64,000 nucleotides of DNA from Centipeda noxia ATCC 43541 (GTDB lineage: Bacteria > Bacillota > Negativicutes > Selenomonadales > Selenomonadaceae). Within the stretch, counting starts at the first letter, position 1. Every line of letters begins with the position of its first letter. The notes under the pieces were generated by a model. It searched no databases. It saw nothing but the letters and a program-made list of their open reading frames with translations, and had not been told where the DNA came from. Positions 18,134 to 64,000 of this stretch are shown here, in pieces. The DNA is taken from positions 7,702-71,701 of the forward strand of contig NZ_GG749278.1 of the NCBI RefSeq assembly GCF_000160555.1. The letters are read 5' to 3'. Made by a program: the position numbers and the translations under genes.

Positions 18134-19411
18134 TCAAGGACGTTTTCTGCTGCGTCGTCCGAGGTTTGTGACAGTCTTTCCCGCCTTCCTTCCGTGCGTA
18201 TGGGATTTCGCGAATTTTTTCCGTCCCCTTGTCTGAGACGCACGAGGCGGACGGGGGGCCCCGTTTCGCGGCTTCTCGGTGCACGTTTTCGGGCGCGGCT
18301 TCTTCTTCGCCGCCGTGCGGCGCAGACGTTCCTTGAGCGCGGCCTCCATCTTCCGCAGCTTCTCGTGCTGATGCGCCGCGACAAGCGTGATCGCCTTCCC
18401 CTGCGCTCCGGCACGCCCCGTACGGCCGATGCGGTGGATGTAGTCTGTCACGGTCGGCGGCAAATCATAGTTGTAGACGTGGGTCACGCCCTCGATGTCG
18501 AGGCCGCGCGCGGCAATGTCGGTCGCACAGAGAATCTGCAGCTTTGCCTCACGGAACCTGCGCAGGACGAATGCCCGCTGCGTCTGCGTGAGGTCGCCGC
18601 TGAGCGCATCGACAAGATAGCCGCGGCGGGCAAGCTCCATCATGACGGTATGCGTACGCTCCTTCGTTGCGCAGAACACCATTGCGAGATAGGGCGCCTC
18701 CTCATTGATGGAGGCACAGAGGCGGTCGATCTTTTCCCCCTCACTCACCGAGAGTGCAATCTGCTCAATGGAGGCGAGCGTCGTCGTCTCCCCTTCAATG
18801 CGGATGTGCGCCGGGTTCGTCATAAATTTCTTCGTAAGGCGCACGATGCGCTCAGGCATTGTCGCTGAGAAAAGCGCGAGCTGATAGTCCTGTGCCGCAC
18901 AGCCAAGAAGGCTTTCCACGTCCTCAATGAAGCCCATCTTAAGCATTTCATCCGCCTCATCAAGAACGATTTTGTTCACGCTGCCGAGTGCAAGCGTGCC
19001 GCGCCGCACATGGTCGAGCAGGCGGCCGGGCGTGCCGATGACGAGCTGCGGGCGGCGGCGCAGCTTCTCCTTCTGCCGCTCGATATCCGCACCTCCGTAG
19101 ATGACGATCGTCCCGATGCCGAGCGGCTCTCCAAGCGGTTCCGCCACACGGGCAATCTGGATCGCAAGTTCGCGCGTCGGTGCGATGACCAGTGCCTGTG
19201 CTACCGTTCCCTGCGGCTTGATCTTCTCAAGCAGCGGCAGGAGGAACGAGAGTGTCTTGCCCGTACCAGTCTGTGCCTGCGCGATCACATCCCGTCCTGC
19301 GCGCATCGGCGGGATCGCCTGCTCCTGCACGGGGGTCGGCTCCGTAATGCCCTGTCTTTGGAGAAGCGCTGTCAGCACCTCCGAGACGCCGAGCGCATCA
19401 AATTTCATCAT
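18134..19411 (-). CDS. DEAD-box ATP-dependent RNA helicase
   Basis: Unwinds structured RNA (ribosome assembly, cold adaptation or mRNA decay). Motifs in order: Q motif FDALGVSEVL...GITEPTPVQEQAIP; Walker A AQTGTGKT; PTRELAIQ; TPGRLLDH; Walker B VLDEADEML; FSATMPE; then the second RecA domain with ATDIAARGLD and HRIGRTGRAG. A basic tail of about 60 residues (KKKPRPKTC to RSRKRP) probably binds RNA. It is about 425 residues. The start overlaps the map stop (ATGATGA), which gives coupling. It resembles CshA/DeaD, but I cannot assign a specific subfamily. Confidence 0.93.
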   Translation of the reverse strand: MMKFDALGVSEVLTALLQRQGITEPTPVQEQAIPPMRAGRDVIAQAQTGTGKTLSFLLPLLEKIKPQGTVAQALVIAPTRELAIQIARVAEPLGEPLGIGTIVIYGGADIERQKEKLRRRPQLVIGTPGRLLDHVRRGTLALGSVNKIVLDEADEMLKMGFIEDVESLLGCAAQDYQLALFSATMPERIVRLTKKFMTNPAHIRIEGETTTLASIEQIALSVSEGEKIDRLCASINEEAPYLAMVFCATKERTHTVMMELARRGYLVDALSGDLTQTQRAFVLRRFREAKLQILCATDIAARGLDIEGVTHVYNYDLPPTVTDYIHRIGRTGRAGAQGKAITLVAAHQHEKLRKMEAALKERLRRTAAKKKPRPKTCTEKPRNGAPRPPRASQTRGRKKFAKSHTHGRKAGKTVTNLGRRSRKRP

Positions 19412-20280
19412 GATGAGAGCACCTCTGCGCCGGTCTCCGTGATGAGGATGGTCTTTTCCCACTGCGCTGACAAGCTGCGGTCCTTTGTCCGCACCGTCCA
19501 TCCGTCCTCCGCGTCCACCGTCACATCATAATCGCCTGCGTTGATCATGGGCTCGACCGTAAATACCATGCCGGGCACCATAAGCATCCCCGTGCCCGCC
19601 TCGCCTTCGTGCGGAACAAACGGTTCCATGTGGAAGTCCTTGCCGACGCCGTGCCCGCCGAGGGCGGTGACAACGGAGTAGCCGTTCGCATGCGCCCAGT
19701 CGCCGCACGCTGCACTCACGTCACCGAGGAAGTGCCACGGACGCGCCGCCGCAATGCCGCGCTCCATGCACTCCTTCGTCACCTGCACGAGACGCTCCGC
19801 CGCCGCGGGCACCTTTCCCACGAGATACATACGGGAAGCATCCGCATAGTAGCCGTCAACAATCACGGTGGAGTCGACGTTGACAATATCCCCCTCTTTG
19901 AGGACATCCTTCTTTGACGGAATCCCGTGGCAGACCACATTGTTGATTGATGTGCAGATGCTCTTCGGGAACCCCTCGAACCCGAGGCAGGCCGGAATGC
20001 CGCCTCTCTCAACGATGTAGTCATGTGCCGCGCGGTCAAGTGACTCCGTATCGGTGCCGGGGCGCACAAGCGTCTCCATGAGATCGAGCACGCCGTCGTT
20101 GATGACCGCGGCCCGGCGGATCCCCTCGATGTCCGCAGCGTTGTTGATGATCTTGCGCGGCGGGCGCACCTGCCCCTTCAGCACATCGTACCGGATGGAT
20201 GCAATACGATCGTCAAAGTCTTCATGGCACTTTTTATATTTCTTTCCGCTGCCGCACCAGCATAGCTCGTTTCGGTTCAT
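19408..20280 (-). CDS. map: Methionine aminopeptidase with N-terminal SEC-C zinc motif
   Basis: Removes the initiator Met from nascent proteins. It is 290 residues from ATG 20280 behind AAAGGAAGAGGA. An SEC-C motif opens the protein (MNRNELCWCGSGKKYKKCH), a small zinc finger also found on SecA and thought to bind ribosomes. The metal-dependent pita-bread domain follows, with ligands in VNVDSTVIVDGYYAD, GHGVGKDFH and TVEPMI. Codons upstream of 20280 in the same frame are antisense to a deacetylase and not part of the gene. The stop overlaps the helicase start. Confidence 0.95.
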   Translation of the reverse strand: MNRNELCWCGSGKKYKKCHEDFDDRIASIRYDVLKGQVRPPRKIINNAADIEGIRRAAVINDGVLDLMETLVRPGTDTESLDRAAHDYIVERGGIPACLGFEGFPKSICTSINNVVCHGIPSKKDVLKEGDIVNVDSTVIVDGYYADASRMYLVGKVPAAAERLVQVTKECMERGIAAARPWHFLGDVSAACGDWAHANGYSVVTALGGHGVGKDFHMEPFVPHEGEAGTGMLMVPGMVFTVEPMINAGDYDVTVDAEDGWTVRTKDRSLSAQWEKTILITETGAEVLSS

Positions 20281-55441: not shown

Positions 55442-58400
55442 TCACCGATGGTACCGAATGCAGAGCGCCTTCAGCTTTTTCGGATCGAGTTCGAGGAGAT
55501 AGTCCTTCTTTAGGCTCCAGCGCCAGTTGATGCCGACGGTGCCCGGCGTGTTCATGCGCGCGCGCTCATCGAGTGCCAGAAGGTCCTGCATGGGGATGAT
55601 CGCCATGCGTGCGCGCGAGGCATATGCCATCTTGATGAGACGCTTGCAGATGGTCTTCGGGCGATCAGAGGTTGTGCCCGTGAGATTCGCAAGCGTCTCG
55701 CGCAGCACCTCGTCAATATCACGCGTGAACCAACCGACGGTCGTATTGTTGTCGTGCGTACCCGTGTAGACGATGCTGTTCTCGGGCGCAGTAAAGCCGA
55801 CGCGCCCTGATTCGTTCGGTGCGAGCATGAAGTGAATGATCTTCATCCCCGGAAAGCCGCAGTCATCGCGCAGCCGCTCGACATCATTCGTGATGACGCC
55901 GAGATCCTCAGCGACAATGTCGAGCGTTCCGAGTTCGCGCTCAATCGCATCGAAGAAATGTATACCGGGTCCCTTGACCCAGCGCCCGTTGATCGCAGTC
56001 TCCGCCTTGCCGTCCACAGACCAGTAGGACTCAAATGCACGGAAATGGTCAATGCGGATAATATCGACCTGCTCGCGCAGCTTTTGGAAGCGCCGTTTCC
56101 ACCATGCGTAGTTTTCTGCTGCCATCGCGTCCCAGTTGTACTGCGGATTCCCCCACAGCTGCCCATTTGCTGCAAAGTAATCGGGCGGAACGCCTGCCAC
56201 GGTACGCGCCGTTCCGTCCTCATTCAGGTCAAAGAGCTGCTGATGCGCCCATGCATCCGCGCTGTCCTGCGCAACGAAGATCGGCATGTCGCCGAGAACT
56301 TCAATGCCCTTCCTGCGTGCATAGTCATGCAGACGGTTCCACTGGACATGGAAGACATATTGCTTGAATCGATCGAGTTCCACCTCGTCCCGCTGCCGCT
56401 CAGCAAGCGCTTTCAGTGCCTCGGGATCGCGCTGCTTGATCTCCTCCGGCCACTCCATCCACGCCGTCCGTCCATACTCCTTCTTTGCCGCGTGAAAAAG
56501 GGCGTAGTCGTCGAGCCAGTATGCTTCCTGTTCGCAAAAGGCACGATAGTCCGCATCCTCCGCGCTTGTCCTGCGAAAGACGCGGAATGCCTTCTCGAGC
56601 ATATTTTTCTTAAACTGCTTCACGCGCTGGAAGTCAATGAACGCCGTATTTGCCTCATACGGCAGAAAGATATCCCTCTCGGTCAGCCAACCGCGCGCCG
56701 CGAGTTCCTCAAGATCAATCAACATGATATTCCCTGCGAACGCGGAGATGGACTGATAGGGAGAATAGCTGCATCCAACGGGGCTGAGCGGCAGGATCTG
56801 CCAGACCTTTTGCCCCGCCTCCGCGAGGAAGTCGAGGAAACGATATGCCTCCCTGCCGAAGTCGCCGACGCCGTACTTCGACGGAAGGGAAGTCGGATGC
56901 AGGAGAACGCCCGCTTTGCGCTCATAGCGGCGCGGCTCTTTGCGCTCGCGCAGGAGGAGCCCGAACAGCGGCGGGATTTTGATGCGCAGCCGTCCGCACT
57001 CGACCTCATACGTACGCGAGGGTTTGAATGCATCCTCGAACACGCCGCAGGCAAAGTCGCTTACATCTGCCTCGATGCTCAGCGTCTCCGTGAGGCTGCG
57101 GTTGAACGCGGCAATGAATACGCCGTCCTCCTTCTCGTGGTTGAACACATCGTAGCCTGAACGGATCGTGCGCGCATAGACGACAACATCCCCCGTGCCA
57201 TAAAGCGGCAGAATGTCGCCCGTGCGCAGCGCGTCGTTCTCATTTCGTATGGCAATGAAACGCTCGAACCATCCGCGAATCTCCTTATTGCCGTGCTCCC
57301 AATCATATGGTCTGCGGTTGAAGGGGTCCTTGAAGCCCTGCATCCCGATCTCATCACCGTAGTAGACACTGGGCACGCCGGGATAGGTCATCTGCCAGAG
57401 CGTCGCCATGAGAAGGCGGCGCGAGCCGAGCGCGAACTGCTCCGGCGTCATGCGTACGCGCGACTGCTCGATCGCCGGCATCCCCTCGTAGTAGGGAACG
57501 CCGGCAAGCACGGTAATCGCGCGCTGCACATCGTGGCTGCTGATGAGGTTCATCATTGCGTAGAGATTTTCTCTCGGGTAGTTCTCGATCTGACTGGCGA
57601 GGCGCCGCGCCGTCTGCCGTCCGTCCGATGCGCCTGTGAGGAAGTCGAACCAGATCGTGCGCAGCGGATAGTTCATCGCCGAGTCCATCTCATTGCCCGA
57701 GAGATATTCGCGCGGCGTCCCATAGGCGACTTTGTTCGACGCGTCCTCCCAGACCTCGCCGATCATGACGGCGTCCGGGTTGCTCTTTTTAAGCTCTGCA
57801 AAAAACGCCTTGGAGAAGGTCGGCGGCAGCTCATCGATCACGTCCAGGCGCCAGCCTGCGATGCCCTCCTTCATCCAGTGATGGAGCACGCTGTCCTCGC
57901 TCGTAATGACGAAGTCCATATAGGCGGGATCGGTCTCATTGACGTTCGGCAGCGTGTCAAAGTTCCACCAGCAGTCATACTCATTCGGATAGCTGCGAAA
58001 ACGGTACCACGAGTAGTACGGCGACTCTTTCGACTGGTAGGCACCGAGCGAATGATACTGCTGCTGCCGGTTGAAGTAGATGCTGTTGCTGCCCGTGTGA
58101 CTGAACACGCCGTCGAGAATGATGCGGATGCCGCGCTCCCGGGCAGCCGCGATGAGGCTGCGAAAATCCTCGATATCGCCAAGCATGGGATCAATTTTAT
58201 GATAATCGCCCGTGTCGTAGTGATGGTTGCTCTCCGACTCAAAAACAGGATTGAAGTAGATGCACGAAATCCCGAGATCCTGCAGATAGTCCAGCTTTTC
58301 CATAACCCCGCGCAGGTTGCCGCCGAAGAAATCATACGCGATGATCTCCTTTGTATCGGGGTCCTTCAGATACATGGGATCGTCTGTCCAATCCGTACGG

Positions 58401-58891
58401 ATAACCGCGCCCTTTTTGCGTACGATTGTATCACCCGAGCGTGCGAAGCGATCCGGAAAGATCTGGTACATGACGGCGTTTTTGAACCAGTCGGGGGTGT
58501 GCGCGCCCTTATTGTAGATTGTGATCTGATAGGATGCGGGCGCCGTATTGCTCAGGGTGCCGACACCGCCCAGCATCTCCTCGTTGTTCCCGTAAAAACA
58601 GGTCTCGTCCGCCATCGTGATGATGAAGTAATACCAAAGCAGACAGCCGTAATCCGGCAGCTCGAACCAGCAGGTATAGAAGCGCTGCTCTCCCCCCGTA
58701 TCCTTCGTCTCAAGGGGAATCAAGCGTTCCCCCGTCCGATCCTGCCACAGACGCACCAGCACTTGGCGCACAGGCTCATAGCTGCGGATGCGGATGCCGA
58801 GGCGTATCCGGCTGCCCGCCTCCGCCGCGCCGACGATCGAGCGGTAATAGATATTCTGTGAGTTGTGCTCCACCTGATAAGGTTCCAACAT
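55442..58891 (-). CDS. Fusion of GH13 alpha-glucan hydrolase and GH77 4-alpha-glucanotransferase (MalQ)
   Basis: 1149 residues, cytoplasmic. Residues about 1-130 form a starch-binding-like beta domain. About 135-650 are a GH13 neopullulanase/maltodextrin-hydrolase core: MYQIFPDRFARSGD, nucleophile GWRLDVIDELP, acid/base MIGEVWED, and SSHDVQRAI. A short RKEPRRYERK linker leads to a complete MalQ (about 660-1149): GVLLHPTSLPSKYGVGDFG, IIRIDHFRAFE, IVAEDLGVIT and YTGTHDNNTTVGW. Both active sites look intact. One chain could debranch or hydrolyse glycogen fragments and disproportionate the resulting maltodextrins. It is the last gene of the glycogen locus. Confidence 0.93.
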   Translation of the reverse strand: MLEPYQVEHNSQNIYYRSIVGAAEAGSRIRLGIRIRSYEPVRQVLVRLWQDRTGERLIPLETKDTGGEQRFYTCWFELPDYGCLLWYYFIITMADETCFYGNNEEMLGGVGTLSNTAPASYQITIYNKGAHTPDWFKNAVMYQIFPDRFARSGDTIVRKKGAVIRTDWTDDPMYLKDPDTKEIIAYDFFGGNLRGVMEKLDYLQDLGISCIYFNPVFESESNHHYDTGDYHKIDPMLGDIEDFRSLIAAARERGIRIILDGVFSHTGSNSIYFNRQQQYHSLGAYQSKESPYYSWYRFRSYPNEYDCWWNFDTLPNVNETDPAYMDFVITSEDSVLHHWMKEGIAGWRLDVIDELPPTFSKAFFAELKKSNPDAVMIGEVWEDASNKVAYGTPREYLSGNEMDSAMNYPLRTIWFDFLTGASDGRQTARRLASQIENYPRENLYAMMNLISSHDVQRAITVLAGVPYYEGMPAIEQSRVRMTPEQFALGSRRLLMATLWQMTYPGVPSVYYGDEIGMQGFKDPFNRRPYDWEHGNKEIRGWFERFIAIRNENDALRTGDILPLYGTGDVVVYARTIRSGYDVFNHEKEDGVFIAAFNRSLTETLSIEADVSDFACGVFEDAFKPSRTYEVECGRLRIKIPPLFGLLLRERKEPRRYERKAGVLLHPTSLPSKYGVGDFGREAYRFLDFLAEAGQKVWQILPLSPVGCSYSPYQSISAFAGNIMLIDLEELAARGWLTERDIFLPYEANTAFIDFQRVKQFKKNMLEKAFRVFRRTSAEDADYRAFCEQEAYWLDDYALFHAAKKEYGRTAWMEWPEEIKQRDPEALKALAERQRDEVELDRFKQYVFHVQWNRLHDYARRKGIEVLGDMPIFVAQDSADAWAHQQLFDLNEDGTARTVAGVPPDYFAANGQLWGNPQYNWDAMAAENYAWWKRRFQKLREQVDIIRIDHFRAFESYWSVDGKAETAINGRWVKGPGIHFFDAIERELGTLDIVAEDLGVITNDVERLRDDCGFPGMKIIHFMLAPNESGRVGFTAPENSIVYTGTHDNNTTVGWFTRDIDEVLRETLANLTGTTSDRPKTICKRLIKMAYASRARMAIIPMQDLLALDERARMNTPGTVGINWRWSLKKDYLLELDPKKLKALCIRYHR

Positions 58892-59021: not shown

Positions 59022-60467
59022 TCAATTTTCGAGCAAAAGTCGCTCATAGAGGGTCTCATACTCTTTTGCCGAGCGCGTCCAGCTGAAGTCACTGTGCATC
59101 GCCGTAAAGACCAGCTGGCGCCATTCGCGCAGATTCCCGTAGACAGCAAGCGCGCGCTTCAGCGCATACATCATCTCATGTGCGTTGTATTCGTAGAAGA
59201 GGAAGCCGTTCCCCTTATCCACATCCGAACGGTCGAACTGGATGACCGTATCCTTCAGACCGCCGGTCTCGCGCACGACCGGGATCGATCCGTACCGCAT
59301 GGCAATGATCTGGCTGAGCCCGCACGGCTCATACATGGACGGCATGAGGAAGATATCCGATGCCGCATAGATCCGCTGCGCAAGCTCGTTCGAAAAGCGG
59401 ATGTTGATCGACGTCTTGTTCGGGTAACGCCAAGCAAGTTCCTTGAACCAGTCCTCGTAGCCGCGGTCGCCCGTACCGAGCAGGACAAACTGCGCGTTCT
59501 CATGCTGGAGGATCTCATCCAGCACGCGCACGACGAGATCCAGCCCTTTATCTGCGACGAGACGCGTAACCATCGCGATCATCGGCGTGCGACGGTTCTC
59601 CGGAAGCCCGAGGTCGCGCTGCAGCTGTACTTTGTTGTCGCTCTTTCCCTCGACGGCGTTCTTTACGCTGTAATTGACATAAAGATTCTTGTCCGTCTTC
59701 GGGTTGTAGACATCGTAGTCGATCCCGTTCACAATGCCGAAGAGCTCTTCGCGGCGCTTGCGCAGCAGTCCGTCAAGGTGCTCGCCGTAGTAGTCGTATT
59801 GAATCTCCTCAGCATAGGTCTTGCTGACCGTTGAAATATAGTCCGCGTAAATGATGCCCGCCTTCATAAAGTTCACTGCATCAAAGAACTCAAAATCGCC
59901 GTTGTTGAAATACGCCCAGTCAAGCCCCAGAACATCCGTCATAACATCCTTGGGGAACACGCCTTGGTATTTCAGATTGTGAATGGTAAAGAGCGTCCGG
60001 ATCCCCGTATAGCGCAGATCATCCATATGCTCCAGGCGCAGGAACACATTGACAAGCGCCGCGTGCCAGTCGTTCGAGTGGATGATATCCGGCCAGAAAT
60101 CCAACGCGGGGAGGAGATTGAGAACAGCGCGGCTGAAGAACGAAAATCGCTCTGCATCATCCGGATAGCCGTAGAATCCGTCGCGGTTGAAGTACTCTTC
60201 GTTGTCCACAAAGTAAAAGGTGACGCCGTTCAGAACATACTTGTCGATGCCGACGAATTTATCCCGCCAAGCAACATTCAGAATACCGTCATAGATATGT
60301 TCCATGGAGCTGCGAATATCCTCGGCGATCGCACCGTACTTCGGCAGAATGACGCGGCAGTCCACTCCGTCCTTAACGAGCGCGGCGGGGAGCGATCCCG
60401 CTACATCCGCAAGGCCGCCGGTCTTAACAAAAGGAACTGCCTCCGATGCTACATATAGTACCTTCAT
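59022..60467 (-). CDS. glgA: Glycogen synthase GlgA (GT5)
   Basis: Extends alpha-1,4-glucan from ADP-glucose. It is 481 residues. The ADP-glucose loop is VKTGGLADVAGSLPAALV at about 15-32 (KTGGL). The C-terminal Rossmann domain has AMVTRLVADKGLDLVVRVL and the catalytic-loop region LMPSMYEPCGLSQIIAMRYG. GGAGG lies before the ATG. It lies between glgB and the GH13-GH77 gene. Confidence 0.96.
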   Translation of the reverse strand: MKVLYVASEAVPFVKTGGLADVAGSLPAALVKDGVDCRVILPKYGAIAEDIRSSMEHIYDGILNVAWRDKFVGIDKYVLNGVTFYFVDNEEYFNRDGFYGYPDDAERFSFFSRAVLNLLPALDFWPDIIHSNDWHAALVNVFLRLEHMDDLRYTGIRTLFTIHNLKYQGVFPKDVMTDVLGLDWAYFNNGDFEFFDAVNFMKAGIIYADYISTVSKTYAEEIQYDYYGEHLDGLLRKRREELFGIVNGIDYDVYNPKTDKNLYVNYSVKNAVEGKSDNKVQLQRDLGLPENRRTPMIAMVTRLVADKGLDLVVRVLDEILQHENAQFVLLGTGDRGYEDWFKELAWRYPNKTSINIRFSNELAQRIYAASDIFLMPSMYEPCGLSQIIAMRYGSIPVVRETGGLKDTVIQFDRSDVDKGNGFLFYEYNAHEMMYALKRALAVYGNLREWRQLVFTAMHSDFSWTRSAKEYETLYERLLLEN

Positions 60468-60574: not shown

Positions 60575-62995
60575 TTAGGCTTTGCCTGCGCGTGCCTTCT
60601 TTGGTTTTTCTTCGCCTTCCCGCGTCGTTTTGCGCGTGCTCTTTTTCTTTGTTGCCGTCATCGACACTGTCTTCGTACTTTCTGCAGCGGCGGACTTCGT
60701 CGCCTTGGCGGATGCCGTTGGAGTTATGCCTGCCGTCTCCTTCGCAGAACTTCTGACCGTTCTCTTTGCCGCCTTCTTTGCGGATTTCTCTGCCTTCTCC
60801 CGGGTCTCTTTTGCCGCGGGCTTAGGCGCCTTCTTCGGGGCCGTCTTTTTTGCGGCAGCCGCCGCAGTCTCGTCTTTCTTCGCAGCGGTGCGCGTCCGCG
60901 GTGTCTTCTTCACTGCGGTCTTTTCTGTCGTCGCTTTCACTGCTGTGCGTTTCTTCGGTGCTGTCTTTTTCGCAGGCGCATGCTTCGGCGCCGCCTTTTC
61001 CGCCGCTGCCGCTCCGCGCCTTTCCGCTGCAGATTCTTTTTTTGCGACTGCATCCGCCGCCGCAGACAGCTCGCTCACAGGGGTTCCCGCGCCGCTCTGC
61101 CGCTTCAAGCGGTAGAATGTCGTGGCAAGCGGCGGTATCGTGAGGACGACAGACTGCTCGCGCCCGTGGAAGGCATAATCCTCGCTGATAATATTTCCCG
61201 TATTGAGCACGCCGCTGCCGCCGTATGCCTCCTCATCCGAGTTGAACACCTCGACATAGCTCCCCTTCGTCGGCACGCCGATGCGGTAGCCGTGCCGCAC
61301 CTCCGGGGTAAAGTTGTGCACGCAGACAATGAAGTCATTGTGATCGTCGGCGCGGCGAATAAGCGCAATAATACTGTTCTCACTGTCGTTGCAGTCAATC
61401 CACTGGAACCCGCCCCAGTCAAAATCCACCTGCCAGAGGGCCTTGTTGTCTACATAGAATTTATTGAGTGCCTTCGAATAGGCCAACATCTTCGCGTGCA
61501 TCGGATACTGCTCGACAAGATGCCAATCCATGCTGTCATCGAAATTCCACTCGATGAAATGCCCGAATTCACCGCCCATGAAAAGCAGCTTTTTGCCCGG
61601 GTGCGCGATCCAATAGCCGAAGAAGGCTCTGAGCCCCGCAAATTTTTGCCAGTAATCGCCCGGCATCTTGCTGATCAGCGAGCTCTTGCCGTGCACGACC
61701 TCGTCATGCGAGAGCGGGAGGACAAAATTCTCGGAGAATGCGTACATCAAGGAGAACGTAATCTTGTCCTGGTTCCACTTGCGATAGATCGGGTCGAGGC
61801 TCATATAGGCGAGTATGTCGTTCATCCAGCCCATGTTCCACTTGTAGTTGAACCCCATGCCGCCCATGTAGACAGGCTTGGAGATCAGCGGCCATGAGGT
61901 GGACTCCTCGGCAATCATAAGCGCATGCGGATGATATTTAAAAATTGTCTCGTTGAGCTTCTTGAGGAAATCCATCGCCTCGAGGTTTCCCGTATCGCCG
62001 TATTTGTTCGGCTGCCACTCGCCGTCCTTGCGTCCGTAGTTGAGATAGAGCATATTTGCAACCGCGTCAATGCGCAGCCCGTCAATGTGGAACTCCTCGA
62101 ACCAGAACAGCGCGTTCGAGATGAGGAAACTCTGCACTTCCGTGCGTCCGTAGTCAAAATTGGTCGTTCCCCACTCCCAGTTCTCCGCGCGCATTTCGTT
62201 GTCGGACTCATAGAGATTCTTGCCGTCGAAATGGCGCAGCCCCTGCTCGTCCTTGCAGAAATGCCCGGGCACCCAGTCCATGATGATGCCGATGCCGTTC
62301 TGGTGCGCCGTATCGATAAGATAGCGGAAATCATCAGGTGTTCCGTAGCGGCTCGTCACGGCGAAATAGCCCGTCGCCTGATACCCCCAGGAACCGTCAT
62401 AGGGATGCTCGCACAAAGGCATGAACTCGATGTGGGTATAGTGCATGTCTTTGACATAGGCGATGAGCTGGTCGGCAAGATCGCGATAGGAGAGATACTC
62501 TCCATCGAGCGAGCGGCGCCACGATCCCGCATGCACCTCGTAGGTGAGCATCGGGTGATCGTATGAGACTTCGCGTGCCTTGCGCTCCTGCCATGCTGCG
62601 TCCTTCCACTCATAGTGGTTCATATCATAGATGCGGGATGCGGTCTGGGGTTTCTTCTCCGCATAAAATCCATAGGGGTCAGCCTTCATGATGCGGGGCC
62701 CGCCCCACTCCGGCTCAATCGCATACTTATAGATTTCTCCTTCGCCGAGTCCTTCGACAAAGGTCTCCCAGATCTCGCCGTCACCGATGCGGCTCATCGG
62801 ATCGGCCAGCGTATTCCAGTCGTTGAATTCCCCGACAACGCTGACTTCTTTGGCATTCGGCGCCCAGACCGTAAAGCGAACACCGCGTTTCCCGTCCCGC
62901 TCGACGAAATGTGCTCCCAGCATTTCCTGCGCGTGATAATTCGTACCCTGATGAAAGAGGTAAAGATCAAACTCACTGAGCGCTGATGTTTTCAT
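60575..62995 (-). CDS. glgB: 1,4-alpha-glucan branching enzyme GlgB with basic histone-H1-like tail
   Basis: Makes alpha-1,6 branches in glycogen. It is 806 residues. CBM48 at about 35-125 (VRFTVWAPNAKEVSVVGEF) and the GH13 core with nucleophile GLRIDAVANMLY, acid/base LMIAEESTSWP and PLSHDEVVHGKSSL, then the C-terminal beta domain ending near residue 630 (IPPLATTFYRLKR). Normal GlgB stops about here. The remaining roughly 175 residues are Lys/Ala/Thr/Pro repeats (AAPKKRTAVKAT, KKTAPKKAPKPAAK), strongly basic and disordered. The tail is in frame with no stop or frameshift. GGAGGGG lies before the ATG. Confidence 0.95.
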   Translation of the reverse strand: MKTSALSEFDLYLFHQGTNYHAQEMLGAHFVERDGKRGVRFTVWAPNAKEVSVVGEFNDWNTLADPMSRIGDGEIWETFVEGLGEGEIYKYAIEPEWGGPRIMKADPYGFYAEKKPQTASRIYDMNHYEWKDAAWQERKAREVSYDHPMLTYEVHAGSWRRSLDGEYLSYRDLADQLIAYVKDMHYTHIEFMPLCEHPYDGSWGYQATGYFAVTSRYGTPDDFRYLIDTAHQNGIGIIMDWVPGHFCKDEQGLRHFDGKNLYESDNEMRAENWEWGTTNFDYGRTEVQSFLISNALFWFEEFHIDGLRIDAVANMLYLNYGRKDGEWQPNKYGDTGNLEAMDFLKKLNETIFKYHPHALMIAEESTSWPLISKPVYMGGMGFNYKWNMGWMNDILAYMSLDPIYRKWNQDKITFSLMYAFSENFVLPLSHDEVVHGKSSLISKMPGDYWQKFAGLRAFFGYWIAHPGKKLLFMGGEFGHFIEWNFDDSMDWHLVEQYPMHAKMLAYSKALNKFYVDNKALWQVDFDWGGFQWIDCNDSENSIIALIRRADDHNDFIVCVHNFTPEVRHGYRIGVPTKGSYVEVFNSDEEAYGGSGVLNTGNIISEDYAFHGREQSVVLTIPPLATTFYRLKRQSGAGTPVSELSAAADAVAKKESAAERRGAAAAEKAAPKHAPAKKTAPKKRTAVKATTEKTAVKKTPRTRTAAKKDETAAAAAKKTAPKKAPKPAAKETREKAEKSAKKAAKRTVRSSAKETAGITPTASAKATKSAAAESTKTVSMTATKKKSTRKTTREGEEKPKKARAGKA

Positions 62996-63027: not shown

Positions 63028-64000
63028 CTACGAGATGATGACAGGTCGGATGTTCCAGATATCCCGCGCATACTCGTCAATCGTGCGGTCCGAGGAAAAG
63101 CGGCCGGCGTGTGCGACATTCATTGCCGCCGTGCGCGCCCAGCCGTCCTTGTCCTTGAACCGCCGCATGACTTCGATGCGCGCGTTGTCGTACGCATTGA
63201 AGTCCTTCAGTATAAAGAACTCGTCGTTCGCGTGCAGCAGATAGTCATACAGCGAACGGAAGTCGCCGTAGGTGCCGTCAACAAGCTGGGTCATCACCGT
63301 GCGCACCTTTTCGTTCGTATGATACTCATCCCACGCAGAGTAGGCGCCTGACGCATAGTAGTTCATGACCTCTTCCGCCTTGAGCCCGAAGATGACACAG
63401 TGATCGCTGCCGACCGCATCGCGGATCTCGACATTCGCCCCATCGAGCGTGCCGAGCGTGATCGCGCCGTTCATCATGAACTTCATATTGCCCGTGCCCG
63501 ACGCCTCCTTCGACGCCGTAGAGATCTGCTCGCTGACATCCGCAGCCGGATAGACAAGCTCGCCGATCGAGACGCCGAAGTTCTCGATGAAGATGACCTT
63601 CATAAAATCGTTGACGCGCTTATCCTGATTGATGCGGTCGGCGACTACGTTGATGAGGCGAATCGTCTCCTTTGCGATATAGTAGCCAGGGGCCGCCTTT
63701 CCGCCGAAGAAATAGGTCACCGGCTGGGTCAGGAACGACGGTTCGCTGAGCGCCCGATGATAGCGGTACATGATGTGCAGAATGTTCATCAGCTGCCGTT
63801 TGTAGGAGTGGATGCGCTTGACTTGGATGTCGAACATGGAATCCGGGTTCAGCTTCACGCCGTTGTGCCGCTCAATGTATCGCGCAAGTCCCTCACGGCG
63901 CAGATGCTTGATCTTCATGAGCTGCTCGAGGAAGTTCTTGTCCTCAACATGATCATGCAGACCGTCCATCTGCTCCGGGTGCCGATGCCATTTATGACTG
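63028..64000 (-). CDS. glgP: Glycogen phosphorylase, C-terminal part (cut by window end)
   Basis: Releases glucose 1-phosphate from glycogen. Only the last 320 or so codons are in the window; the frame is open to the edge. FDIQVKRIHSYKRQ marks the glucan/phosphate site (Ser where Glu is usual in KRIHEYKRQ). KEASGTGNMKFMMNGA contains the Lys that binds pyridoxal phosphate, followed by LGTLDGANVEI. It is located 32 bases upstream of glgB and transcribed toward it. Confidence 0.96.
   Translation of the reverse strand, partial: SHKWHRHPEQMDGLHDHVEDKNFLEQLMKIKHLRREGLARYIERHNGVKLNPDSMFDIQVKRIHSYKRQLMNILHIMYRYHRALSEPSFLTQPVTYFFGGKAAPGYYIAKETIRLINVVADRINQDKRVNDFMKVIFIENFGVSIGELVYPAADVSEQISTASKEASGTGNMKFMMNGAITLGTLDGANVEIRDAVGSDHCVIFGLKAEEVMNYYASGAYSAWDEYHTNEKVRTVMTQLVDGTYGDFRSLYDYLLHANDEFFILKDFNAYDNARIEVMRRFKDKDGWARTAAMNVAHAGRFSSDRTIDEYARDIWNIRPVIIS

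Follow-up and report, generated by a model that had tools for sequence, protein, structure and literature searches.

A histone H1-like tail on the glycogen branching enzyme of Selenomonadaceae as a possible tether between glycogen and the nucleoid

Background

Why should a glycogen branching enzyme end in a long basic tail resembling histone H1? The question is raised by glgB in the window, the whole stretch of 64,000 nucleotides analysed here, which comes from an oral Selenomonas. A sequence-only reading described a complete GlgB of about 630 residues continued by about 175 codons rich in Lys, Ala, Thr and Pro; the core indeed runs to about residue 629 and is followed by 177 residues. The position given for the tail was also correct, its 60575 including the stop codon and the tail proper starting at 60578.

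Glycogen in E. coli collects at the old pole, phase-separates and displaces the nucleoid, giving unequal daughters (PMC12706056). S. ruminantium is named among glycogen accumulators (PMC10395257), and glycogen is absent from a review of organelle positioning (PMC13052382). No paper describing an H1-like or lysine-rich tail on GlgB turned up in a full-text search of open-licence PMC papers.

Results and discussion

The branching enzyme and its tail

The features concerned are as follows.

60575..62995 (stop codon included), minus strand: glgB, 1,4-alpha-glucan branching enzyme with a C-terminal extension, 806 aa (ORF and translation, NCBIfam GlgB models, Pfam domains)
61109..62995, minus strand: GlgB core, residues 1-629, comprising CBM48, GH13 catalytic domain and C-terminal beta domain (Pfam, NCBIfam, alignment)
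60578..61108, minus strand: H1-like basic tail, residues 630-806, 177 aa, net charge +34 (translation, composition, in-frame tails in 14 of 14 genomes of the genus)
61016..61108, minus strand: linker opening the tail, about residues 630-660; its QSGAGTP does not vary in the genus (14-genome alignment; similar linkers in other genera)
60578..60661, minus strand: C-terminal end of the tail, about residues 779-806, with MTAxKK..RK...PKK kept in the genus (14-genome alignment)
59022..60467, minus strand: glgA (glycogen synthase), which follows glgB and has no tail (Pfam)
63028..63999, minus strand: gene upstream of glgB, truncated by the window end and probably coding for the C-terminal part of glycogen phosphorylase (open-ended ORF, sequence reading)

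The core was matched by the NCBIfam models NF003811 (927.8 bits, cut-off 741) and NF008967 (920 bits, cut-off 577), both with E about 1e-279. These matches span residues 3-633 of the ORF (ends at 629 and 633), and that of the C-terminal beta domain (Pfam Alpha-amylase_C) stops at residue 630. D310, E363 and D431, which we take to be the catalytic Asp/Glu/Asp of GH13 enzymes, are invariant in an alignment of 23 relatives. The core is of the same GH13 branching-enzyme type as PDB entries 1m7x, 4lpc and 5gqw (phmmer); no ordinary GlgB in the PDB, these three included, was aligned by phmmer past residue 645 of the query. Judged by its domains and conserved residues, the core is a complete and otherwise normal GH13 branching enzyme.

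The tail consists mainly of A, K, T, E, R, S and P and has a pI of 10.8. Ala makes up about 27%, Lys 21%, Thr 14% and Arg 7%, hydrophobic residues account for 6%, and K, A, T, P, S and E together for 82% of the 177 residues. A query with the tail alone matched no Pfam family, even at E 10, no PDB sequence and no plasmid record. The window's own tail holds no RGRP (AT-hook core), and a repeat scan found no DNA tandem array in it. AlphaFold2, run with a 23-sequence alignment, gave pLDDT < 50 for residues 635-806 and about 25 over most of them; the catalytic domain was also largely poor because the alignment is shallow. The low-confidence model has one short helix at 644-666 and gives a faint hint that the tail may be intrinsically disordered in the cell.

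Used as a protein query, the tail failed to recover tails known from other genera; a composition scan replaced it, covering 1454 largely non-overlapping ORFs in 1.65 Mb of the 2.05 Mb genome (about 80%). The GlgB tail ranked first for H1-like character, with 90% K/A/T/P/S/E over 80 aa against 70% in the next ORF, and first again for basic minus hydrophobic content; the description of the tail as H1-like was well founded. Other basic tails in the genome are carried by proteins reading (from sequence) as a DEAD-box helicase, an RNase R-like protein, IF-3 and ribosomal protein L3; these are R/G/H-rich or short, unlike that of GlgB. The helicase (window 18137-19501, minus strand) has a long tail rich in Lys, Arg, Gly and His, and the IF-3 (L225, contig C18 of the same genome, near 110.4 kb) a short C-terminal SPKAQKPAKAAKPAK tail. 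A KxAK DNA pattern was about as frequent as in controls, and its short clusters were confined to the IF-3, L3 and GlgB tails and one membrane protein.

A tail on GlgA, as well or instead, was also considered and, judged by frame length, was not seen. All 86 family genomes examined for GlgA have it (86 of 86), mostly in open frames near enzyme length; a few frames are longer, up to 616 aa stop to stop. Downstream of glgA (window 55442-58891, minus strand) lies an ORF of 1149 aa with a GH13 alpha-amylase-type domain (143-535) and a GH77 4-alpha-glucanotransferase domain (664-1130). Elsewhere in the window, positions 2025-2075 form a tandem array of 2.5 copies of a 20-bp unit, AAGGTTCTAAAGAACCTGTC, which holds an inverted repeat.

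Distribution of the tail among relatives

The suspicion that the tail might be missing from relatives and arise from a local frameshift is dispelled by its presence, in frame, in all 14 genomes of the genus (open frames 786-833), which excludes frameshift and assembly error. Its length, for which variation between strains had been suggested, differs between species, ranging from about 150 to 190 aa within the genus; the tail of one genus genome matches that of Selenomonas artemidis DSM 19719 (L032).

A strong GlgB match was present in 167 of 189 family genomes, and tails were read from 26 genera. Taking as clearly basic those of at least 60 aa and net charge at least +10, the comparison of GlgB C termini across Selenomonadaceae that the sequence-only reading had suggested found such tails in 14 of the 26 (g1, g2, g3, g7, g9, g16, g17, g20, g21, g23, g25, g26, g27 in one species, and g30). 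A fusion peculiar to the window is thereby ruled out. GlgB ends no more than 16 residues past the core in the sampled g10, g12, g15, g18 and g28. The extension is 21 residues in g19, 35-50 in g6, g8 and g22, 2-40 in g29, and 71 in g24, where its charge is only +4; GlgB of g5 is cut by contig ends. Among named organisms, GlgB of Mitsuokella sp. oral taxon 131 (L033) ends in a long basic tail and that of S. ruminantium (L041) in about 48 nearly neutral residues past the core.

Shorter Lys-rich tails occur on GlgB in other families of Negativicutes (f28, f2) and likewise in some other Bacillota/Clostridia: f152 (L208, genome G629), f140 and a Ruminococcaceae genome (L058). Those outside Negativicutes suggest independent gains. 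In the phylum sample, most other GlgB open frames are near 630-690 residues.

Evolution of the tail

Across the 14 genomes of the genus, both ends of the tail are invariant (QSGAGTP at the start, MTAxKK..RK and PKK at the end) and the middle varies in sequence and length; sequence drifts while composition and charge are kept. In the 16 closest pairs, dN/dS was 0.11-0.30 for the tail, values that the alignment of low-complexity sequence may push downward, and 0.014-0.029 for the core. The pair G011/G008, which needs few gaps, gave 0.21 for the tail (167 codons, 82% identical). On these codon comparisons the tail evolves fast, yet under purifying selection.

On a tree of 40 cores, parsimony counted 10 changes of tail state, at least five of them on starred branches, against 12.8 with shuffled labels; one row (g5) was scored as tail-less though its contig ends early. 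Such repeated change argues that the tail is an accessory, gained or lost many times, and separate from the core enzyme. It would also suit a nearly neutral, low-complexity tail whose length changes through repeat slippage or a shifted stop codon and which is tolerated as harmless. Large variation in tail length points the same way, as does one relative's tail (L021, positions 983-1354), which is coded by 9.5 copies of a 39-bp unit (90% matches) and is a candidate source of length variation between strains. We nevertheless consider neutrality quite unlikely given the dN/dS values, the invariant motifs at both ends and the AT-hook cores in relatives' tails, which are far above shuffles. Moreover, no comparable stretch occurs elsewhere in the roughly 80% of the genome scanned, and the window's tail lacks a tandem array.

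What the tail may bind

Tails of at least 60 aa in the family held 11 RGRP cores, where within-tail shuffles led to an expectation of 0.034; they lie in 10 of 39 tails from five genera, and as these tails are related, the independent events number fewer than 11. Sub-threshold Pfam hits of relatives' tails included AT_hook, the H-NS C-terminal domain and HC2, besides unrelated low scorers. The AT-hook cores, with the precedents discussed below, favour DNA as the partner.

The earlier proposal of a tether to polyanions holds up best for DNA and is weakened for polyphosphate, since none of the 14 genomes of the genus gave a match to PPK1 or PPK2, while control genomes did. That the tail ties glycogen to polyphosphate is accordingly very improbable, even though the similar tail of AlgP sits on polyphosphate granules (PMC9239181).

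RNA is a possible partner. The tail may bind RNA or ribosomes, or serve as a general charged bristle, keeping GlgB and glycogen particles in solution and apart without being tied to the nucleoid in particular. Polycations bind polyanions of every kind, the composition of the tail is kept while its sequence drifts, and the helicase, RNase R-like protein, IF-3 and L3 of the same genome also bear basic tails. However, relatives' AT-hook cores point to DNA, and the tails of the RNA-related proteins differ from that of GlgB. We regard this alternative as unlikely, though one to be taken seriously.

The tail could instead act on the enzyme or its partners, folding on the acidic core or recruiting acidic glycogen enzymes and so tuning branching. 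The net charges of core and tail (-31 and +34) almost cancel, and the short stretches conserved at either end of the tail could serve as docking motifs. Yet tailed and tail-less GlgB have equally acidic cores (mean charge -31.4 and -30.1, respectively; Mann-Whitney p 0.28), which leaves charge compensation unsupported and disfavours simple neutralization, and the AT-hook cores are left unexplained. An effect on the enzyme is decidedly improbable.

A possible nucleoid tether

The best explanation, held tentatively and at a little under even odds, is that GlgB is bifunctional and that its tail tethers glycogen to the nucleoid, by analogy with PhaF, PhaM and AlgP. The core, with its CBM48, is a domain expected on the storage polymer and is fused to the basic tail; it would add alpha-1,6 branches and presumably remain on the growing glycogen particle in the cell. 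The +34 tail, presumably disordered, would bind nucleic acid irrespective of sequence, with chromosomal DNA the likeliest target, and tether the particle to the nucleoid. Tethering would keep glycogen particles dispersed, counter nucleoid exclusion and drift to the pole, and allow particles to be shared between daughter cells. A tail-less GlgB would presumably still branch glycogen, as in the tail-less genera.

We count in favour of the tether the tails in every genus genome and in 14 of 26 genera, purifying selection, the charge kept through sequence drift, the excess of RGRP, the precedents and the lack of PPK matches. Against it count the window's tail, which has neither AT-hook nor Pfam match, the several genera that do without a tail, and a tail state that changed at least five times on starred branches and 10 times by parsimony. 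The basic tails on RNA-related proteins also count against it, making RNA binding a fair alternative. The sequence-only reading had further suggested that the tail marks polar placement of glycogen; nothing here supports this, and precedents for nucleoid tethers would predict the opposite, placement off the pole.

A GlgB with a built-in tail of DNA-binding type is a concrete and easily tested candidate for avoiding polar glycogen of the E. coli kind. The family offers a natural pair for comparison, tailed in Mitsuokella sp. oral taxon 131 and tail-poor in S. ruminantium.

Comparison with known systems

Among the closest parallels are PhaF of Pseudomonas putida and PhaM of Cupriavidus necator, which have their N terminus on PHB granules and a histone-like C terminus on DNA; PhaM in E. 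coli suppresses polar placement of PHB granules (PMC13052382). Like tailed GlgB, both consist of a part that binds a storage polymer followed by a histone-like basic C-terminal part. They differ in that their polymer is PHA/PHB, where GlgB would bind glycogen, and in that PhaF, a phasin, has no enzyme part. Binding to DNA has been demonstrated for PhaF and PhaM and is proposed for the GlgB tail by analogy.

AlgP of Pseudomonas aeruginosa has a 154-aa KPAA-repeat tail needed to space polyphosphate granules; like GlgB of the window it has a Lys/Pro/Ala-rich H1-like C-terminal domain, which in AlgP is predicted to be disordered (PMC9239181). In contrast to GlgB, the repeats of AlgP are near-perfect, its N-terminal domain is helical and not an enzyme, and its granule is polyphosphate, for which no PPK was found in the genus studied here. 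The low-complexity composition makes homology of the GlgB tail with those of PhaF, PhaM and AlgP hard to judge.

CarD of Myxococcus xanthus has an HMGA-like disordered C-terminal tail with an acidic segment followed by basic RGRP AT-hooks (PMC4374960). Several relatives' GlgB tails resemble it in having an acidic segment and then basic RGRP AT-hooks, whereas CarD is a transcription factor and the window's tail is without RGRP. HMGA-like and H1-like domains are reportedly functionally equivalent, by the title of a further study on CarD, which PMC4374960 cites. Such equivalence would fit the alternation of AT-hook-rich and plain H1-like tails on GlgB.

Seen beside these systems, the window's protein is a normal GlgB whose H1-like tail probably works as the PhaF, PhaM and AlgP tethers do. 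More tentatively still, glycogen in Selenomonadaceae may have its own device for nucleoid tethering and partition in the H1/HMGA-like tail of GlgB, repeatedly gained and lost, and would be a third class of granule for which the same solution has been found. If this is true, the principle of the H1-tail tether extends from PHA and polyphosphate to glycogen.
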